NCBI RefSeq assembly: GCF_017873555.1
Contig: NZ_JAGGKE010000010.1
Coordinates: 62,001 to 126,000 of the forward strand
Source of the DNA: Halorubrum trapanicum
Lineage (GTDB): Archaea; Halobacteriota; Halobacteria; Halobacteriales; Haloferacaceae
Direction of reading: 5' to 3'
DNA length: 64,000 bases
The position numbers and the translations under genes were made by a program. Shown in pieces: positions 42,222-51,361 of this stretch (positions are counted from its first letter, which is position 1; each line of letters opens with the position of its first letter). The notes beneath the pieces are model-generated. The model saw only the letters and a program-made list of their open reading frames with translations. It had not been told where the DNA came from and searched no databases.

Positions 42222-42314
42222 GCCGATTCGCGGCGCGCCGGCGACAAACCGGTGTCGGAACCGGCGACAACCGGCCGAGGGTTGTCGATGTCAGACGTTC
42301 GTTTACACCCACCT

Positions 42315-43906: not shown

Positions 43907-45145
43907 TCAGCGGATGACGTCGAGCCCGTTGTTCTTCTCGATCGGGTCGCTGCCGCCGTCGGACTCCCACGCGCTGCGCTCGGTGCCGCCGGAGACCGCC
44001 GGCTCGCCCCTGTCGCCGTGGCCGCCCGCGGTCTCGTTCGCCTCGGCCGCCCGCGAGCGCGAGTCGCCGATTTCGTCGCCGTTGACCGCGGCGCGGGACT
44101 TGTCCGCCTGCTTCTGGGTCGAGGGACCGAGCACCTGCGCGCTCTGGACGCCCGTCATGATCGCCATAACGCGCACCTTCCCCTTGTACTCCTCCTGGAT
44201 GCGGGCGCCCCAGATCACGTTGGCGCTCGCCTCCAGCCGCTCGGTGATGTTGTTCGCGATCCCCTCGGCCTCCTTCAGCGTGAGGTCGGGACCGCCCGTG
44301 ATGTGGACGAGTCCGCCCGAGGCGCCGCGGTAGTCCACGTCGAGCAGCGGGTGGTTCATCGCGTCGTTGACCACCTCTTGGGTCTTGTTCTTGTCTTGGG
44401 TCTCGCCGACGAGCATGACCGCGACGCCGCCCTGGTCCATGATCGTCGACATGTCGGCGTAGTCGAGGTTGATGAGGCTCGGCTGGGTGATCGTCTCGGA
44501 GATCCCCTTCACCGTCTCCGCGATGATCTGGTCCATCACGGAGAACGCCTTCCCGATCGGCAGGTTCGGGACGTAATCGAGGAGCCGGTTGTTGTCGAGG
44601 ACGATGATCGAGTCGGCCTCGTTGCGGAGGGTCTCCAGACCCTCCTCGGCTTTCACCGTGCGGGCGCGCTCGACGTTGAACGGCGTCGAGACCATCCCGA
44701 CGACGATGGCGCCCTGCTCTTTGGCGATCTTCGAGACGACCGGCGCGGCGCCGGTGCCGGTGCCGCCGCCCATCCCGGCGGTGACGAAGACGAGGTCGGC
44801 GTCGCCGAGCACCTCCTTGATCGTCCCCTGAGCCATCTCGGTGGCGCGCTCGCCCATCTTGGGGTCGCCGCCGGCACCGAGCCCCTGCGTGAGCGACTTG
44901 CCCACGAGGATCTTGGTGTCGGCCTCGATCATCTTGAGGTGCTGTTTGTCCGTGTTGATGGCGACGGTGTCGGCGCCGTCGACGCCGATGTTGTACAGCC
45001 GGTTGACCGTGTTGTTCCCGGCGCCGCCGGCGCCGACGATGACTATTCGGGGGTCCCCGAACTCGTCGTCGTCCATGTCGACGGAGTCCATGTCGCGCTT
45101 CTCCGCTTCCGCGTTGTCGAGGGCGTCCTGAACGAGATCTTGCAT
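43907..45145 (-). CDS. ftsZ2: cell division protein FtsZ2
   Basis: 412 residues. GAGGAGNNT near residue 38, tubulin signature GGGTGTG near 123, T7 loop NLDYADM near 247, and a C-terminal tail ending NNGLDVIR after a disordered region. The N-terminal [10 protein letters not shown] block and the neighbours (ncsA, cdrS) identify the FtsZ2 paralogue rather than FtsZ1. It polymerises with GTP and is needed for ring constriction in haloarchaea. The ATG is 4 nt after the cdrS stop. Confidence 0.93.
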
Positions 45146-45149
45146 CAGT

Positions 45150-45329
45150 TTACACCTTCGCCCAGTTGCGGTTGCGGCCGCGCTCGTCGCGCTCGCCGTC
45201 CTGTTCGTTCAACATGTCGCGGACGGCCGACCGGATCGCCTCGCTCCGGTTCGGGAACTCGCCCGTCTCCACCATCTGTTCGACCTCGTCAATCTGCTGT
45301 TTCGGGATTCGTAGTGTCACACGCTCCAT
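45150..45329 (-). CDS. cdrS: CdrS, short ribbon-helix-helix regulator of cell division
   Basis: 59 residues from ATG at 45329 to TAA at 45150-45152. RHH fold: [20 protein letters not shown], then [19 protein letters not shown], and a basic tail ending RNRNWAKV. In Halobacterium the cdrS-ftsZ2 operon is controlled by CdrL, and CdrS itself controls ftsZ2 and other division genes. Here cdrS lies 4 nt before ftsZ2, the same order. The leader between promoter and ATG is about 115 nt long, unusual for haloarchaea, and carries palindromes. Confidence 0.88.
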
Positions 45330-45342
45330 TGGTATTCCCCCG

Positions 45343-45376
45343 GTAAGACGGCGAACACGCGACGCGTGTGTCTTAC
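45343..45376. promoter_or_regulatory. inverted GTAAGAC repeat with inner palindrome in the cdrS leader
   Basis: GTAAGAC at 45343-45349 and GTCTTAC at 45370-45376 face each other; between them ACACGCG-A-CGCGTGT (45355-45369) is a second perfect palindrome. It lies 14-47 bp upstream of the cdrS ATG. Confidence 0.65.
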
Positions 45377-45425: not shown

Positions 45426-45443
45426 GTAAGACGACCGTCTTAC
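45426..45443. promoter_or_regulatory. palindromic operator at the predicted cdrS transcription start
   Basis: GTAAGACG-AC-CGTCTTAC, perfect 8-bp arms, immediately downstream of the start expected from the TATA box at 45467-45476. Candidate CdrL or CdrS binding site. Confidence 0.68.
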
Positions 45444-45476: not shown

Positions 45477-45533
45477 CTACCGGTGGTTGTAAGACAAAAT
45501 GTTAAACTACTGATTATGCGCGCATATGGGCGT

Positions 45534-46151
45534 CTACCTCCTGTTATCGTCTTTCAGAACGTCTGCTGCCGGGGTCCTCCGCCCGCATCCCGGGCAGAAC
45601 GCCCAGTCGGTCCGGAGCTCGTCGCCGCACTCGCAGAAGGCTCTGTGAGATTGCTTTTCGCCACAGTTCGGGCAGTACACGTGGTCTGATGGCACTATCT
45701 CGCCGCACCCGCCACAGGCGCTTTCGCGCGTTTGCGCGCTCGGGTCCGCATCCGTCTTACGCGCGCCCGGATCCCCGTCGGTCGCCGTCTCACGCGTCAC
45801 ACGGACGTCGCCTTCGGACTCGTCGGATTGGGCGTTCGGCGCGTCGAGCGTGACGTTTACGTTGATATCTCTCGAGCTTCCGGCCGTATACGCCGGCGTC
45901 GCGGCGCCGGCCGTCGGACCGAGCCGCTCGTCGAGTGCGGCGTCGAGCCGCTCCGCGATCAGCTCGTCGACGCGGTCCGCGAGGGCGTCGTCGACGCTCC
46001 CCGTCGCCGCGTCGGACTCGTCCGACGCGGCCTCGTCGCCCCCGTCGAGGTGTGTCCGGAGCGCCTCCCGCATCACCTCGCTTTTGGAGGCGTCACACGC
46101 TTCCAGCCGGTCGACGAGGTCGTCGTCCGCCCGGAAGGTGATCTTGCTCAT
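45534..46151 (-). CDS. cdrL: CdrL, long ribbon-helix-helix protein with zinc ribbons
   Basis: 205 residues. N-terminal RHH (MSKITFRADDDLVDRLEAC, KSEVMREALRTHL), a long acidic linker with one helical segment (DDALADRVDELIAERLDAAL), and a double zinc ribbon at the C-terminus (CGGCGEIVPSDHVYCPNCG, then CECGDELRTDWAFCPGCG). This domain set and the position upstream of cdrS-ftsZ2 fit CdrL, which in Halobacterium binds the cdrS promoter. TATA-like GATACTT lies about 25 bp upstream of the ATG. Confidence 0.85.
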   Translation of the reverse strand: MSKITFRADDDLVDRLEACDASKSEVMREALRTHLDGGDEAASDESDAATGSVDDALADRVDELIAERLDAALDERLGPTAGAATPAYTAGSSRDINVNVTLDAPNAQSDESEGDVRVTRETATDGDPGARKTDADPSAQTRESACGGCGEIVPSDHVYCPNCGEKQSHRAFCECGDELRTDWAFCPGCGRRTPAADVLKDDNRR

Positions 46152-46255
46152 ACCGAAGGGGTATTGCCGGTCGGTACAAGTATCTTCCCCTGTTGTCTGA
46201 CACGTTTCACGACTCCGAAACGTTCGGGAAACGCCGTCAAACCGTGCGAATTGGT

Positions 46256-46305
46256 CACACGTGTGTCTGACGCAGATTTATACGCGTCGCGCGAGCACAC
46301 GTGTG
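46256..46305. promoter_or_regulatory. smc-operon promoter: TATA box flanked by two CACACGTGTG palindromes
   Basis: Two identical 10-bp palindromes CACACGTGTG at 46256-46265 and 46296-46305, starts 40 bp apart, with the TATA box ATTTATACG (46276-46284) between them. The second ends 4 bp before the ATG at 46310. A related TGTCTGACACG sequence lies at 46194-46204, toward cdrL. Confidence 0.7.
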
Positions 46306-46309
46306 TATA

Positions 46310-46771
46310 ATGAGCAACCGCGTCGAGGACCTCGAACGGCAGGTCGCGGAGCTACAGGCGGCGGTCAACGGACTCACCGAAGAGCTCGTCGAGATGAAAG
46401 AGCGCGTTCGACAGCTGGAAGACGAGCGCTCGGTCGCGGTCGAGGCGGACGCGACCGGTGCGGAAACCGGTTCCGAGGACGACACGGCGGCGTCTGTCGG
46501 CGACGAGTCCGCCGCAGCCGGTAGCGAAGCCGAACGGGTGTCCGGCGGCGAGCGGACGACTCACTCCGACGACCACGTCGACGTCTTCGAGTCCGTCGAG
46601 GACTCTTCCGACGGTGCGTCCGAGGGCGACGCGACGGCCGCGGCCGACGCGGGCGACGGTGAGGACGTCATCGTGCCAGAACAGTCTGCGACGACGCCCG
46701 ACGCCGACGCGACCGACGAAACCGACGACGACGGCGAGTCGAGCGAGGGCGACGACATCATCGTCGCGTAA
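46310..46771 (+). CDS. coiled-coil acidic protein co-transcribed with smc (DUF7518-like)
   Basis: 153 residues from ATG at 46310. Residues 4-42 are a coiled coil with heptads (VEDLERQVAELQAAVNGLTEELVEMKERVRQLEDE); the rest is disordered and very acidic and ends with two similar motifs, EDVIVPEQ and GDDIIVA. No known catalytic motif. Haloarchaeal genomes place such a protein directly before smc; the gap here is 17 bp. It may be an adaptor or regulator of the SMC complex. Named family uncertain. Confidence 0.72.
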   Translation: MSNRVEDLERQVAELQAAVNGLTEELVEMKERVRQLEDERSVAVEADATGAETGSEDDTAASVGDESAAAGSEAERVSGGERTTHSDDHVDVFESVEDSSDGASEGDATAAADAGDGEDVIVPEQSATTPDADATDETDDDGESSEGDDIIVA

Positions 46772-46788: not shown

Positions 46789-49700
46789 ATGCACATCACT
46801 GAAGTCGTTCTGGACGGGTTCAAGAGCTTCGGGCGGACGACGAGGATCCCCTTCTACGAGGATTTCACGGTCGTCACCGGCCCGAACGGCTCCGGGAAGT
46901 CGAACATCATCGACGGCGTGCTGTTCGCGCTCGGGCTGGCGCGCACCCGCGGGATCCGCGCGAAGAAGCTCACCGACCTCATCTACAATCCCGGCCACGA
47001 CGACGGCGAGGCCGCGGACGGACCGAACGAGGCCTCGGTGACGGTCGTGCTCTCGAACGAGGACGGCACCCTCGACCGATCGCAGGTCGTCTCCGCGGCC
47101 GGCACGGAGAACGTCGGCGACGTCTCCGAGATCACGATCAAGCGCCGGGTGAAGGAGACCGAGGACAACTACTACTCGTACTACTACCTCAACGGGCGCT
47201 CCGTGAACCTCTCGGACGTCCAGGACCTGCTCGCGGCGGCGGGCGTCACGCCGGAGGGGTACAACGTGGTGATGCAGGGCGACGTCACCGAGATCATCAA
47301 CATGACCCCCTACCAGCGGCGGGGGATCATCGACGAGATCGCGGGCGTCGCCGAGTTCGACGAGAAGAAGGAGGCCGCCTACGAGGAGCTGGACACCGTC
47401 GAAGACCGGATCGGCGAGGCCGACCTCCGGATCGGCGAGAAGGAGGACCGGCTCGATCAGCTCGCCGACGAGCGCGAGACCGCGCTCCAGTACCAGGACC
47501 TCCGCGACGAGCTCGAGGAGTACCGCGGGTTCAGGAAGGCCTCGGAGCTGGAGGACAAGCGCGACGCGCTCGCGGACGTCGAAAGCGAGATCGGCGAGGC
47601 GGAGACGGACCTCGAATCGCTCCGCGAGGAGCTGGACGCCAGACAGGGGAAGCTCACCCGCCTGGAGGAGGACCTCGCGGACCTCAACCACGAGATAGAG
47701 ACGAAAGGCGAGGAGGAACAGATCGAGATCCGCTCGGAGATAGAGGCGATCAAAGGCGAGGTCTCGCGGCTGGAGGACAGGATCGAGTCGGCCGAGTCGC
47801 GCGCCGAGTCGGCCGAGAACGACCGGCGGCAGGCGTTCGTCCAGATCGACCGCAAAGAGGAGACGATCGAGGAGCTGGACGCCGAGATCCGCGAGACGAA
47901 AGTGGAGAAGGCGTCGGTGAAATCGGAGCTGGCGACGAAGCGCTCCGAGCTGGCCGACGTCGAGGCCGAGATCGAGGGGGCCGACACCGAGTTCGACGAG
48001 CTGAAGGCCGAGCTGTCGGAGAAGAAGGAGGAGATCGAGTCCCTCCGCGAGGAGAAAAACGAGACGCAACGCGAGAAGGACCGGCTGCTCGACGAGGCTC
48101 GCCGGCGGTCGAACGCGGTGAGCGAGGCCCGCGAGGAGCTGGAGGCGGCCCGCGAGTCGCTCCCGGAGCACAAGGCGCGGATCTCCGAGCTGAAAAGCGA
48201 GCTGGACAAAGCCGAGAAGAATCAGGCGACCATCGAGGACGCGGTCGCGGACCTCTTCTCGGAGAAGGCCGAGACGGAGGAGCGGCTGGAGGAGATCGAG
48301 GCGACGCTCCGCGAGAAGCAGAACGAGTACGCCAAGCTGGAGGCGGCCGCCGACGAGCGCGGTGACGCCTCGTGGCCCAGAGCGGTCACCGAGGTGAAGA
48401 ACGGCGGCATCGACGGTGTCCACGGCGCGGTCGGCGAGTTGGCCTCGGTCGAGACCCAGTACGCCGAGGCCTGCGAGACCGCCGCGGGCGGGCGACTGGC
48501 GAACGTCGTCGTCGACGACGACGGCGTCGGCTCGACGTGTATCGACTACCTCAAACAGCGGAACGCGGGGCGGGCGACGTTCCTCCCGATCACGAAGATG
48601 GACGACCGGAGCCTGCCGCGGAAGCCCTCGCTACCGGGCGTCGTCGACTTCGCGCGCGACCTCGTCGACTACGACGCCGAGTACGAGTCGATCTTCTCGT
48701 ACGTGCTCGGCTCGACGCTCGTCGTCGAGGACATGTCGACCGCCCGCGAGCTGATGGGCGACTTCCGGATGGTGACGCTCGACGGCGACCTCGTCGAGAA
48801 GTCGGGCGCGATGACCGGCGGCTCCGGCGGCGGCTCCCGCTACTCGTTCACGAAGTCCGGCGGCGGGAAGCTCGAACGGCTCGCGACGGAGATATCCGAC
48901 CTCGAAGACGAGCGCCAGTCGGTCCAGTCGGAGATCGACGCGCTCGACGACGACATCGAGGACGCGCGCGACCGCAAGGCCGACGCGGCCGAGCGCGTGC
49001 GGTCGCTGGAGGCGGACGTCGAGCGCGCCGAAGAGGAGCTCGCGGAGTCCGAAGACCGGATCGAGGAGCGTGAGACCGAACTCGAAGAGCTGGAGGCGGA
49101 ACGCGAGTCGGTCGACGAGGAGATGACGGCCCTCGACGACGAGCTGGCGGCGACCGACGCGGAGATCGACGAGCTCGCCGCGGAGATCGACGAGATCGAA
49201 GCCGAGCTCGCCGACTCGAAGATCCCCGAGCTCTCCGAGCGCGCCGACGAGATCCGCGCCGAGATCGACGAGCTGGAAGACCGGATGAGCTCGCTCGACG
49301 GTCGGATCAACGAGCTGGAGCTGGAGAAGGGGTACGCCGAGGACGCGCTCGACGACCTCCACGACGACGTCGAGGAGGCGCAGAACGCGAAGGCGGAGGC
49401 CGAGGAGGCGATCGCCGACCACGAGGCCGCCATCGAGGAGAAGGAGGCGGAGTTGGCGGAGAAGAAGGAGGCGATCGCCGACCTCGAAGCGGAGCTCACG
49501 GAGCTGAAGGAGGACCGCGAGGACCTCCGCGAGGAGATCCGCGAGGCGACCCAGCGGCGCGACGAGCAGCGGTCGCTCGTCGCCGAGGCGGAGTCGGACC
49601 TCTCGGATCTCACCGACCGGCGGGACCGACTGGAGTGGGAGATCGACGAGCTGGAGTCGCAGGTCGGCGCCTACGACGCCGAGGAGATCCCCGACCTCGA

Positions 49701-50370
49701 CGAGGTGGAGTCGCGGATCGAGGAGCTGGAGACCGAGATGGAGGCGCTCGAACCGGTGAACATGCTCGCGATCGACGAGTACGACGAGGTCCAGGAGGCG
49801 CTGTCGGAGATTCAGGAGCGCCGCGACGTGCTCGTCGAGGAGCGCGACGCCATCGAGGAGCGCATCGAGGGGTACGAGGCGGCGAAGAAGGAGACGTTCA
49901 TGGAGACGTTCGAGTCGATCAACGACCACTTCGGGGACATCTTCGCGCGGCTCTCGGCCGGGAGCGGCGAGCTCGTCTTGGAGAACCCCGAGGATCCGTT
50001 CGAGGAGGGGCTGACGATGAAGGCCCAGCCCGCGGACAAGCCGGTTCAGCGGCTCGACGCGATGAGCGGCGGCGAGAAGTCGCTCACCGCCCTCTCCTTT
50101 ATCTTCGCGGTCCAGCGGCACAACCCCGCGCCGTTCTACGCGCTCGACGAGATCGACGCGTTCCTCGACGCGGTCAACGCCGAGCGCGTCGGCGAGATGA
50201 TAGAGGAGCTGGCCGAGGAGGCCCAGTTCGTCGTCGTCGGCCACCGCTCGGCGCTGTTGGAGCGCTCGGACCGCGCGATCGGCGTCACGATGCAGGGCGA
50301 CAACCTCTCGGCGGTGACCGGGATGCAGTTCGGTGACGACGCCGACGAGGAGGTGAGCGCGGATGACTGA
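46789..50370 (+). CDS. smc: chromosome segregation protein SMC
   Basis: 1193 residues. N-terminal ATPase lobe (FKSFGRTT, Walker A GPNGSGKSN near residue 31), coiled coil about 170-510, hinge about 515-660 (VVVDDDGVGSTCIDYLKQRNAGRATFLPI, then MTGGSGGG), second coiled coil, and the C-terminal lobe with signature MSGGEKSLTALSF near 1090 and Walker B FYALDEIDAFLD near 1115. It condenses and segregates the chromosome with the kleisin ScpA, whose gene overlaps the smc end by 8 bp. Confidence 0.96.
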   Translation: MHITEVVLDGFKSFGRTTRIPFYEDFTVVTGPNGSGKSNIIDGVLFALGLARTRGIRAKKLTDLIYNPGHDDGEAADGPNEASVTVVLSNEDGTLDRSQVVSAAGTENVGDVSEITIKRRVKETEDNYYSYYYLNGRSVNLSDVQDLLAAAGVTPEGYNVVMQGDVTEIINMTPYQRRGIIDEIAGVAEFDEKKEAAYEELDTVEDRIGEADLRIGEKEDRLDQLADERETALQYQDLRDELEEYRGFRKASELEDKRDALADVESEIGEAETDLESLREELDARQGKLTRLEEDLADLNHEIETKGEEEQIEIRSEIEAIKGEVSRLEDRIESAESRAESAENDRRQAFVQIDRKEETIEELDAEIRETKVEKASVKSELATKRSELADVEAEIEGADTEFDELKAELSEKKEEIESLREEKNETQREKDRLLDEARRRSNAVSEAREELEAARESLPEHKARISELKSELDKAEKNQATIEDAVADLFSEKAETEERLEEIEATLREKQNEYAKLEAAADERGDASWPRAVTEVKNGGIDGVHGAVGELASVETQYAEACETAAGGRLANVVVDDDGVGSTCIDYLKQRNAGRATFLPITKMDDRSLPRKPSLPGVVDFARDLVDYDAEYESIFSYVLGSTLVVEDMSTARELMGDFRMVTLDGDLVEKSGAMTGGSGGGSRYSFTKSGGGKLERLATEISDLEDERQSVQSEIDALDDDIEDARDRKADAAERVRSLEADVERAEEELAESEDRIEERETELEELEAERESVDEEMTALDDELAATDAEIDELAAEIDEIEAELADSKIPELSERADEIRAEIDELEDRMSSLDGRINELELEKGYAEDALDDLHDDVEEAQNAKAEAEEAIADHEAAIEEKEAELAEKKEAIADLEAELTELKEDREDLREEIREATQRRDEQRSLVAEAESDLSDLTDRRDRLEWEIDELESQVGAYDAEEIPDLDEVESRIEELETEMEALEPVNMLAIDEYDEVQEALSEIQERRDVLVEERDAIEERIEGYEAAKKETFMETFESINDHFGDIFARLSAGSGELVLENPEDPFEEGLTMKAQPADKPVQRLDAMSGGEKSLTALSFIFAVQRHNPAPFYALDEIDAFLDAVNAERVGEMIEELAEEAQFVVVGHRSALLERSDRAIGVTMQGDNLSAVTGMQFGDDADEEVSADD

Positions 50371-51361
50371 AGAAGGGGACGGCCAAGGCTCTGGCGGCGG
50401 TTCCGACGACGCCGTCCCCGACCTCGACCTGACGAGCGAGCGCGACGGCGCGGACCCGTTCGCCGACGAGTCTCCGAACGACGATCCTCAGCACGACGAG
50501 GGCGGTGGCCCGGCCGACGAGTCCGGTCCGGACGTGGCGGGCGTCTCACCCCCCGACGAGACCGACGACGACGAGGTCGAGCCCGTCGAACTCCTCGTCC
50601 AGCTCGCCGAGGAGGGCGAGATCGAGCCGTGGGACATCGACATCGTCCAGGTGACGGACGCCTTCTTGGAGAAGCTCGACGAGACGGACCTCCGGACGAC
50701 CGGGCGGGCGCTGTTCTACGCCAGCGTCCTCCTCCGGATGAAAAGCGACGGCATGCTGGCGGACGACGACGAAGAGGCGGAGCCGGAACCGGAGCCGTGG
50801 GAGGTCGCGATGGAGGGCGGCGCGCCCGACCCCGCCGACGGCGACTTCGACCCGATCGACGAGCTGGAGGCGGAGATGGACCGCCGGCTCGACCGGAAGA
50901 ACACCCGCGGCTCGCCGGAGACGCTCGACGAGCTGGTCCGCGAACTGCGCGAGGCCGAGCGCGGCTCGTGGTGGAAGGACTCCCGCGAGTACGACACCTC
51001 CGAGTCGCCGCACGGCCACGCTCGCGGCACGCAGACGCTCGACTACCACGCGGACGACGAGTTCCGGCAGGACGGGGAGCCGACCGCGGGCGAGGCGACC
51101 GACCGCACCCACGACGAGGACATCGAGGAGGTCATCGTGGAGATCGACAACGCTCTCCGGACCCACTTCGAGCGCGGGCGTACGGAGGTGCTGTTCGCGG
51201 AGATCGACGGCGCGGGCGGCCGCCCGTTCATGACGTACCTCGCGCTGCTGTTCATGGCCCACCGCGGCTCGGTCCGGCTCCAGCAGGACGACCTGTTCGG
51301 CGACCTCTGGGTGAAAGACCCCGCGGCGATGACCGGCGAGTCGGAAGCGATCGCAGACTGA
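50363..51361 (+). CDS. scpA: segregation and condensation protein A (kleisin)
   Basis: 332 residues, longer than the usual 230-270. Residues 1-75 are an acidic disordered leader; the kleisin N-domain follows (VEPVELLVQLAEEGEIEPWDIDIVQVTDAFLEKL ... FYASVLLRMKS), a long linker and the C-terminal winged helix (FMTYLALLFMAHRGSVRLQQDDLFGDLWV). It bridges the SMC heads. The ATG overlaps the smc stop by 8 bp. No scpB is visible. Confidence 0.9.
   Translation: MTEEGDGQGSGGGSDDAVPDLDLTSERDGADPFADESPNDDPQHDEGGGPADESGPDVAGVSPPDETDDDEVEPVELLVQLAEEGEIEPWDIDIVQVTDAFLEKLDETDLRTTGRALFYASVLLRMKSDGMLADDDEEAEPEPEPWEVAMEGGAPDPADGDFDPIDELEAEMDRRLDRKNTRGSPETLDELVRELREAERGSWWKDSREYDTSESPHGHARGTQTLDYHADDEFRQDGEPTAGEATDRTHDEDIEEVIVEIDNALRTHFERGRTEVLFAEIDGAGGRPFMTYLALLFMAHRGSVRLQQDDLFGDLWVKDPAAMTGESEAIAD

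Follow-up and report, generated by a model that had tools for sequence, protein, structure and literature searches.

Bacterial RHH operators, such as those of NikR, MetJ, and CopG, consist of short boxes bound pairwise by RHH dimers, and archaeal activators usually bind just upstream of the BRE/TATA. The sequence of the haloarchaeal regulator CdrS is similar to those of NikR and of a CopG/Arc/MetJ-type antitoxin. Methanomicrobia carry cdrS without cdrL. The box described below differs from the bacterial operators in its sequence, its 11-bp spacing, and its gene set of division and segregation. In the available text on Hfx. volcanii, CdrS ChIP sites are reported at ftsZ1 (-50) and dacZ (-47), the ChIP motif is described as having "notable symmetry", and smc, sepF, and the cdrS promoter are absent from the 18 sites (PMC8406309). 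CRISPRi silencing of cdrS-ftsZ2 lowers ftsZ1, ftsZ2, sepF, HVO_0739, and an smc homologue, whose name is not given in the main text (PMC8406309). The silenced strain loses ftsZ2 along with CdrS, so the fall of smc could be indirect. The genes ftsZ1 and smc correspond to HVO_0717 (PMC8406309) and HVO_0689 (PMC10869688), respectively, as given in the available text of these reports. For Hbt. salinarum, the cdrS-ftsZ2 promoter region is the only reproducible CdrL ChIP site in the accessible part of the report, with none at smc (PMC7439475). Deletion of cdrS in this species is described as leaving ftsZ1 unchanged. The three SMC-family genes of Hbt. salinarum other than sph1 show no cell-cycle regulation at the transcript level in the accessible text of PMC1906763.

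The window is a stretch of 64,000 nucleotides from Halorubrum trapanicum. It contains an operon of a DUF7518 coiled-coil gene (46310..46771, + strand; PF24362, E 1.3e-16), smc (46789..50370, +; PF02463 and PF06470), and scpA (50363..51361, +; PF02616). The operon is divergent from cdrL (45534..46151, −; RHH_1, CdrL_M, and double zinc ribbon, PF01402, PF24252, and PF12773), and cdrL is followed by cdrS (45150..45329, −; E 1.1e-8 for RHH_1) and ftsZ2 (43907..45145, −; PF00091 and PF12327). The RHH_1 domain PF01402 is present in both CdrS and CdrL. The TATA box of the smc operon, TTTATA (46277..46282, +), was recognized from the sequence, and the position of its TTTA is fixed in relatives. Transcription probably starts near 46305-46310, as judged from the usual TATA distance, and with the DUF7518 start codon at 46310 the mRNA probably has no leader.

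The conserved core of the smc promoter is the heptamer GTCTGAC (46265..46271, +), followed by G, N4, and TTTA. The comparison covered 80 fetched smc loci, mostly from Halorubrum and other Haloferacales, which become 81 with the window. The pattern GTCTGAC-N5-TTTA was found in 78 of the 81 promoters, 41-46 bases upstream of the start codon, and in every one of these 78 the TTTA is at +12 relative to the start of the box. The three promoters without the full pattern are L059, L064, and L062, the last of which has GTCTGACG with CTTATG. In column counts over the smc promoters, the lack of variation in the columns of the box and the TATA follows from how the promoters were selected. Both strands of the 80 loci (682,589 bases) contain 77 matches, all in the smc promoter and none elsewhere, and a reversed-pattern control gave 0. 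The 47 smc promoters outside the Halorubrum clade mainly keep GTCTGAC and the TATA. Of 117 genomes of the order, 112 contain a looser pattern, GTCTGACG-N3-6-TTTA, usually at a few places each, while its reversed control was mostly 0. When spacers of 0-20 were allowed in 8 genomes, a spacer of 4 accounted for 26 of 50 places.

The presence of cdrL next door does not explain this conservation. A cdrL neighbour is absent in 50 of the 81 smc loci by tblastn, and the box is kept in 47 of these 50, so regulation of smc merely through cdrL next door was rejected. The loci with cdrL next door, the window included, make up the 31-locus Halorubrum-type set used below. Three further observations concern the matches and loci. 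A match to GTCTGAC-TTTAT that precedes a ParA-like gene on contig C17 (L085) was read as chance. In the window, GTCAGACG-N4-TTTA at 42290-42304 has the smc-type layout hundreds of bases upstream of a + strand gene and is not clearly at a promoter. Locus L022, labelled Halobellus captivus ZY8, encodes an SMC 97% identical to the Halorubrum-type protein of the window and has the Halorubrum gene order; its label looks wrong.

A degenerate mate of the core, GTCACAC (46254..46260, +), is located 11 bp upstream. The arrangement in the window, GTCACAC-gtgt-GTCTGAC, resembles a paired box with one mismatch. In the Halorubrum-type set, 25 of 31 loci have RTCACAC at -11, with the spacers GTGT, ATGT, CTGT, ATAC, and GCGT, and four Halorubrum loci (L011, L013, L016, and L024) have the mate two bases nearer. 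Halopenitus and Haloparvum loci keep GTCACAC with the spacers acac, gcgc, and gttt. Outside the clade, 13 of 47 promoters have GTC at -11, compared with 0-3 of 47 for each of the other offsets between 5 and 24, and in Haloferax and many other genera the mate is poor or absent. The Haloferax smc promoters (L036-L049) have a conserved inverted repeat, ATCAC-N7-GTGAT, directly upstream of GTCTGAC, replacing the GTCACAC mate.

Related heptamers are found before cdrS-ftsZ2, where five exact copies of GTCTTAC/GTAAGAC are present in 31 of 31 clade loci. In the window, to which no strand is assigned for these features, box 1 is upstream of the TATA (45489..45495), boxes 2-3 form an 18-bp GTAAGAC-N4-GTCTTAC with 11-bp spacing (45426..45443), and boxes 4-5 (GTAAGAC ... 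GTCTTAC; 45343..45376) are in the cdrS leader. Of 59 genomes of the order, 53 contain the pattern GTAAGACN{2,22}GTCTTAC, including all 46 good ones, mostly once or twice per genome. All 27 cdrS promoters compared from other genomes retain both the inverted pair and the last box, a count that leaves out L117 and L118 (2 of 29 genomes, with no close cdrS match) and the duplicate L119. In the cdrS promoters of L101, L102, and L113, GTCTGAC replaces GTCTTAC as the TATA-side box, and therefore the smc and cdrS forms look like variants of one box. The divergent cdrL promoter has a GTCAGAC box as well (46195..46201, −; GTCTGAC on the + strand), and 24 of 31 loci have a GTCNGAC no more than 62 bp from the start of cdrL, against a background of 6%. 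The four heptamers match the window at 11 places in total, and the two intergenic regions that flank cdrL account for 7 of these.

The motif, derived from smc and cdrS, was subsequently looked for at genes named in the CdrS literature. Before ftsZ1, GTCNGAC-N4-GTCNGAC was found in 7 of 7 genomes, perfectly in 6 and with one mismatch in 1; among 2000 mononucleotide-shuffled promoters, 2 came within one mismatch of it. Before dacZ, an exact heptamer with a weaker mate is present in 7 of 7 genomes, once as GTAAGAC. The sepF promoters have GTCTGACGTAA in 10 of 10 cases, single in 9 and paired in 1. In Haloferax gibbonsii, the gene for a 332-aa DUF7139 membrane protein, about 15 kb from ftsZ1, is preceded by GTCTGACG and TTTTA; within the 19.5-kb stretch concerned, the only two exact heptamers are those before this gene and before ftsZ1. 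The DUF7139 gene fits HVO_0739 by its place and length.

Perfect N4-spaced pairs that include a GTCNGAC were counted in 1.097 Mb of fetched loci, which were chosen around such genes and do not represent an unbiased genome scan. The 11 pairs comprise 7 rows at ftsZ1 (one duplicate), 1 at sepF, and 3 (one duplicate) at two other places, which are L122/L130, representing one place, and L086. Heptamer pairs show further spacer peaks at 2, 7, 11, 18, and 20 bp. The 20-bp peak fits cdrS boxes 4-5, while those at 2, 7, 11, and 18 bp come mainly from few distances from smc and are taken for orthologous repeats. L086 1277-1565, from contig C2 of the source genome, is a gene of 74 aa with no Pfam match; GTCAGAC-N4-GTCCGAC stands before its TATA, GTAAGAC runs into its start codon (GTAAGACACATG), and it is likely a further regulon member. 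L121 and L128 (genomes G074 and G017) have GTCTGACG-N4-TTTA ahead of a gene whose product is weakly similar to hexapeptide-repeat proteins, possibly a polymer-forming cell-shape protein.

The positions of these boxes can be compared with the published ChIP sites. Counted from the ATG, the 10th base of the Haloferax 18-mer is at -58 for ftsZ1 (L163) and at -50 for dacZ (L169), in agreement with the reported -50 and -47 if the leaders are about 8 bases (ftsZ1) and about 3 bases (dacZ). At smc, with a start near 46306, the corresponding position is about -43. The box was matched to the CdrS ChIP motif by target genes and distances, not by the letters of the logo. The Hfx. volcanii CdrS regulon, as far as it is given in the available text of PMC8406309, resembles the gene set found here in two respects: the CdrS targets ftsZ1 and dacZ have an smc-type box at fitting distances, and the CdrS-dependent genes ftsZ1, ftsZ2, and sepF, together with the HVO_0739-like DUF7139 gene, all carry the box. 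It differs in that smc, sepF, and the cdrS promoter are outside the ChIP list. The box itself may already be known through the published CdrS logo, a figure. A search of the open literature found no paper for GTCTGACG with haloarchaea and promoter or for GTAAGAC with Haloferax, and the accessible text of the CdrS/CdrL literature contained no mention of a box at smc, sepF, or cdrS.

With moderate confidence, the smc promoter is considered to contain a CdrS/CdrL-type RHH operator, most likely an activating one, that would place segregation and division genes in one regulon. The boxes, their spacing, their conservation, and the gene set are established here. From the CdrS ChIP sites, the Haloferax 18-mer positions, and the CRISPRi falls, we infer that a CdrS-type operator activates smc-scpA, with CdrS (or CdrL) as the predicted protein bound at smc. 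The regulator would recognize the conserved core just upstream of the BRE/TATA and the weaker mate 11 bp upstream, either with one RHH dimer per heptamer or with a dimer on the core and a helper on the mate. Once bound, it would most likely activate DUF7518-smc-scpA. Single heptamers or N4-spaced pairs of this box also precede cdrS-ftsZ2, ftsZ1, sepF, dacZ, cdrL, and the DUF7139 gene, so that segregation and division genes would form one regulon. These comparisons suggest that smc-scpA and cdrS-ftsZ2 share a regulator, linking segregation to division. The first-pass annotation had proposed such a common regulator on the basis of palindromes at the two promoters; the proposal stands through the GTCTGAC/GTCTTAC box, and the palindromes as its shared element do not.

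The same operator could instead be read at smc by CdrL or another RHH paralogue and not by CdrS, which is considered an unlikely but serious alternative. The cdrL gene is divergent from smc in the window and its own promoter has the box. The region bound by CdrL in Hbt. salinarum, the cdrS-ftsZ2 promoter region, carries GTAAGAC/GTCTTAC boxes in the genomes studied here, five of them in the Halorubrum-type loci, and the published CdrS list is without smc, so far as the available texts go (PMC7439475, PMC8406309). However, the same CdrL data include no ChIP site at smc (PMC7439475), and the tested ChIP targets with GTCNGAC, ftsZ1 and dacZ, belong to CdrS in the accessible report (PMC8406309).

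The first-pass annotation had noticed the same 10-bp palindrome, CACACGTGTG, on both sides of the smc TATA and had read it as a design for repression, with a dimer that blocks TBP and the start site. The observation itself was correct. Both copies are exact, site 1 at 46256..46265 and site 2 at 46296..46305, near the expected transcription start (neither is assigned a strand), and the TATA lies between them. A scan of the whole genome of 3,080,988 bases found no exact copy of CACACGTGTG beyond these two and 18 further places with one mismatch; a first-order Markov model of the window, scaled up to the genome, predicts about 1.2 exact copies. Two copies per genome are not many, and their location 40 bp apart in one promoter is unlike random scatter. 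The refuting condition named in the annotation, a motif that is common and unrelated to promoters, does not hold on either point.

In relatives, the adjoining heptamers are kept, whereas the palindromic symmetry is found in 14 of the 31 Halorubrum-type loci at site 1 and in 2 of the 31 at site 2. The exact double palindrome was found in 1 of 392 genomes of the order, the source genome, and of the separately fetched 80 smc loci, L008, an uncultured Halorubrum MAG, is the only one that has both exact copies as the window does. The last five bases of GTCACAC are the left half of site 1, and GTCTGAC begins at its last base. The palindrome at site 1 comes from the mate, spacer, and first core base, which happen to read CACAC-GTGT-G; variation of the spacer behind RTCACAC removes the palindrome. 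Where the window has site 2, sequences similar to CATACGTGTG are found in the relatives. In 29 of the 31 loci, the sequence closest to CACACGTGTG stands 40 bp from site 1 and resembles CAYACRTGTG, so a genus-level role for site 2 is possible, and it would be an element near the start site. As a side observation, CGCG and CA-ACGTG blocks located between the TATA and the start codon (46289-46309 in the window) are nearly invariant in the 31 loci. The palindromes are regarded mainly as a by-product of the paired box plus this genus-level start-site element, and CACACGTGTG as a conserved operator was rejected because its symmetry is lost in most relatives.

A repressor acting on both palindromes is therefore improbable, although the pair of exact copies at one promoter, the recurrent 40-bp distance, and the higher conservation of both blocks than of the upstream flank would suit it. 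Besides the loss of symmetry, nothing similar was found in the 47 smc promoters outside the genus clade, neither copy overlaps the TATA, and, as the whole core promoter is conserved across the genus, site 2 does not stand out by its conservation. A repressor that blocks TBP is not the favoured mechanism, because the conserved box is just upstream of the BRE/TATA and because silencing of cdrS-ftsZ2 lowers an smc homologue in the available text of PMC8406309. The annotation had also considered a cdrS-leader palindrome, ACACGCG-A-CGCGTGT, to be related to that at smc. It is indeed present at 45355-45369, but it is the variable interior of boxes 4-5, exact in 9 of 31 loci, and was rejected both as a relative of CACACGTGTG and as a shared element.

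An extended basal promoter element beside the BRE, with GTCTGACG read by TFB/TBP and serving as no operator, would explain the fixed spacing to TTTA at smc and the N4 spacing peak, but it is very doubtful, as the heptamers are also found in inverted N4 pairs, in the cdrS leader on the downstream side of the TATA, and farther upstream at ftsZ1, and only few such promoters exist per genome.

An operator of the CdrS/CdrL type at smc may have a wider meaning. There is about an even chance that GTCNGAC, with its variant GTAAGAC, is a class-wide haloarchaeal division box through which a single RHH switch would control chromosome condensation (smc-scpA), both FtsZ proteins, SepF, the c-di-AMP synthase, and the regulators CdrS and CdrL; this would be a master regulon of the archaeal division cycle with an autoregulated five-box promoter. 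The coordination of chromosome segregation with division at the transcript level is poorly known in archaea, and a genome-rare short box common to smc-scpA, ftsZ1, cdrS-ftsZ2, sepF, and dacZ represents a concrete and testable link between the two. Such a shared box would explain why sepF and an smc homologue fall on silencing of cdrS-ftsZ2 despite their absence from the ChIP list, and it predicts further members of the regulon.
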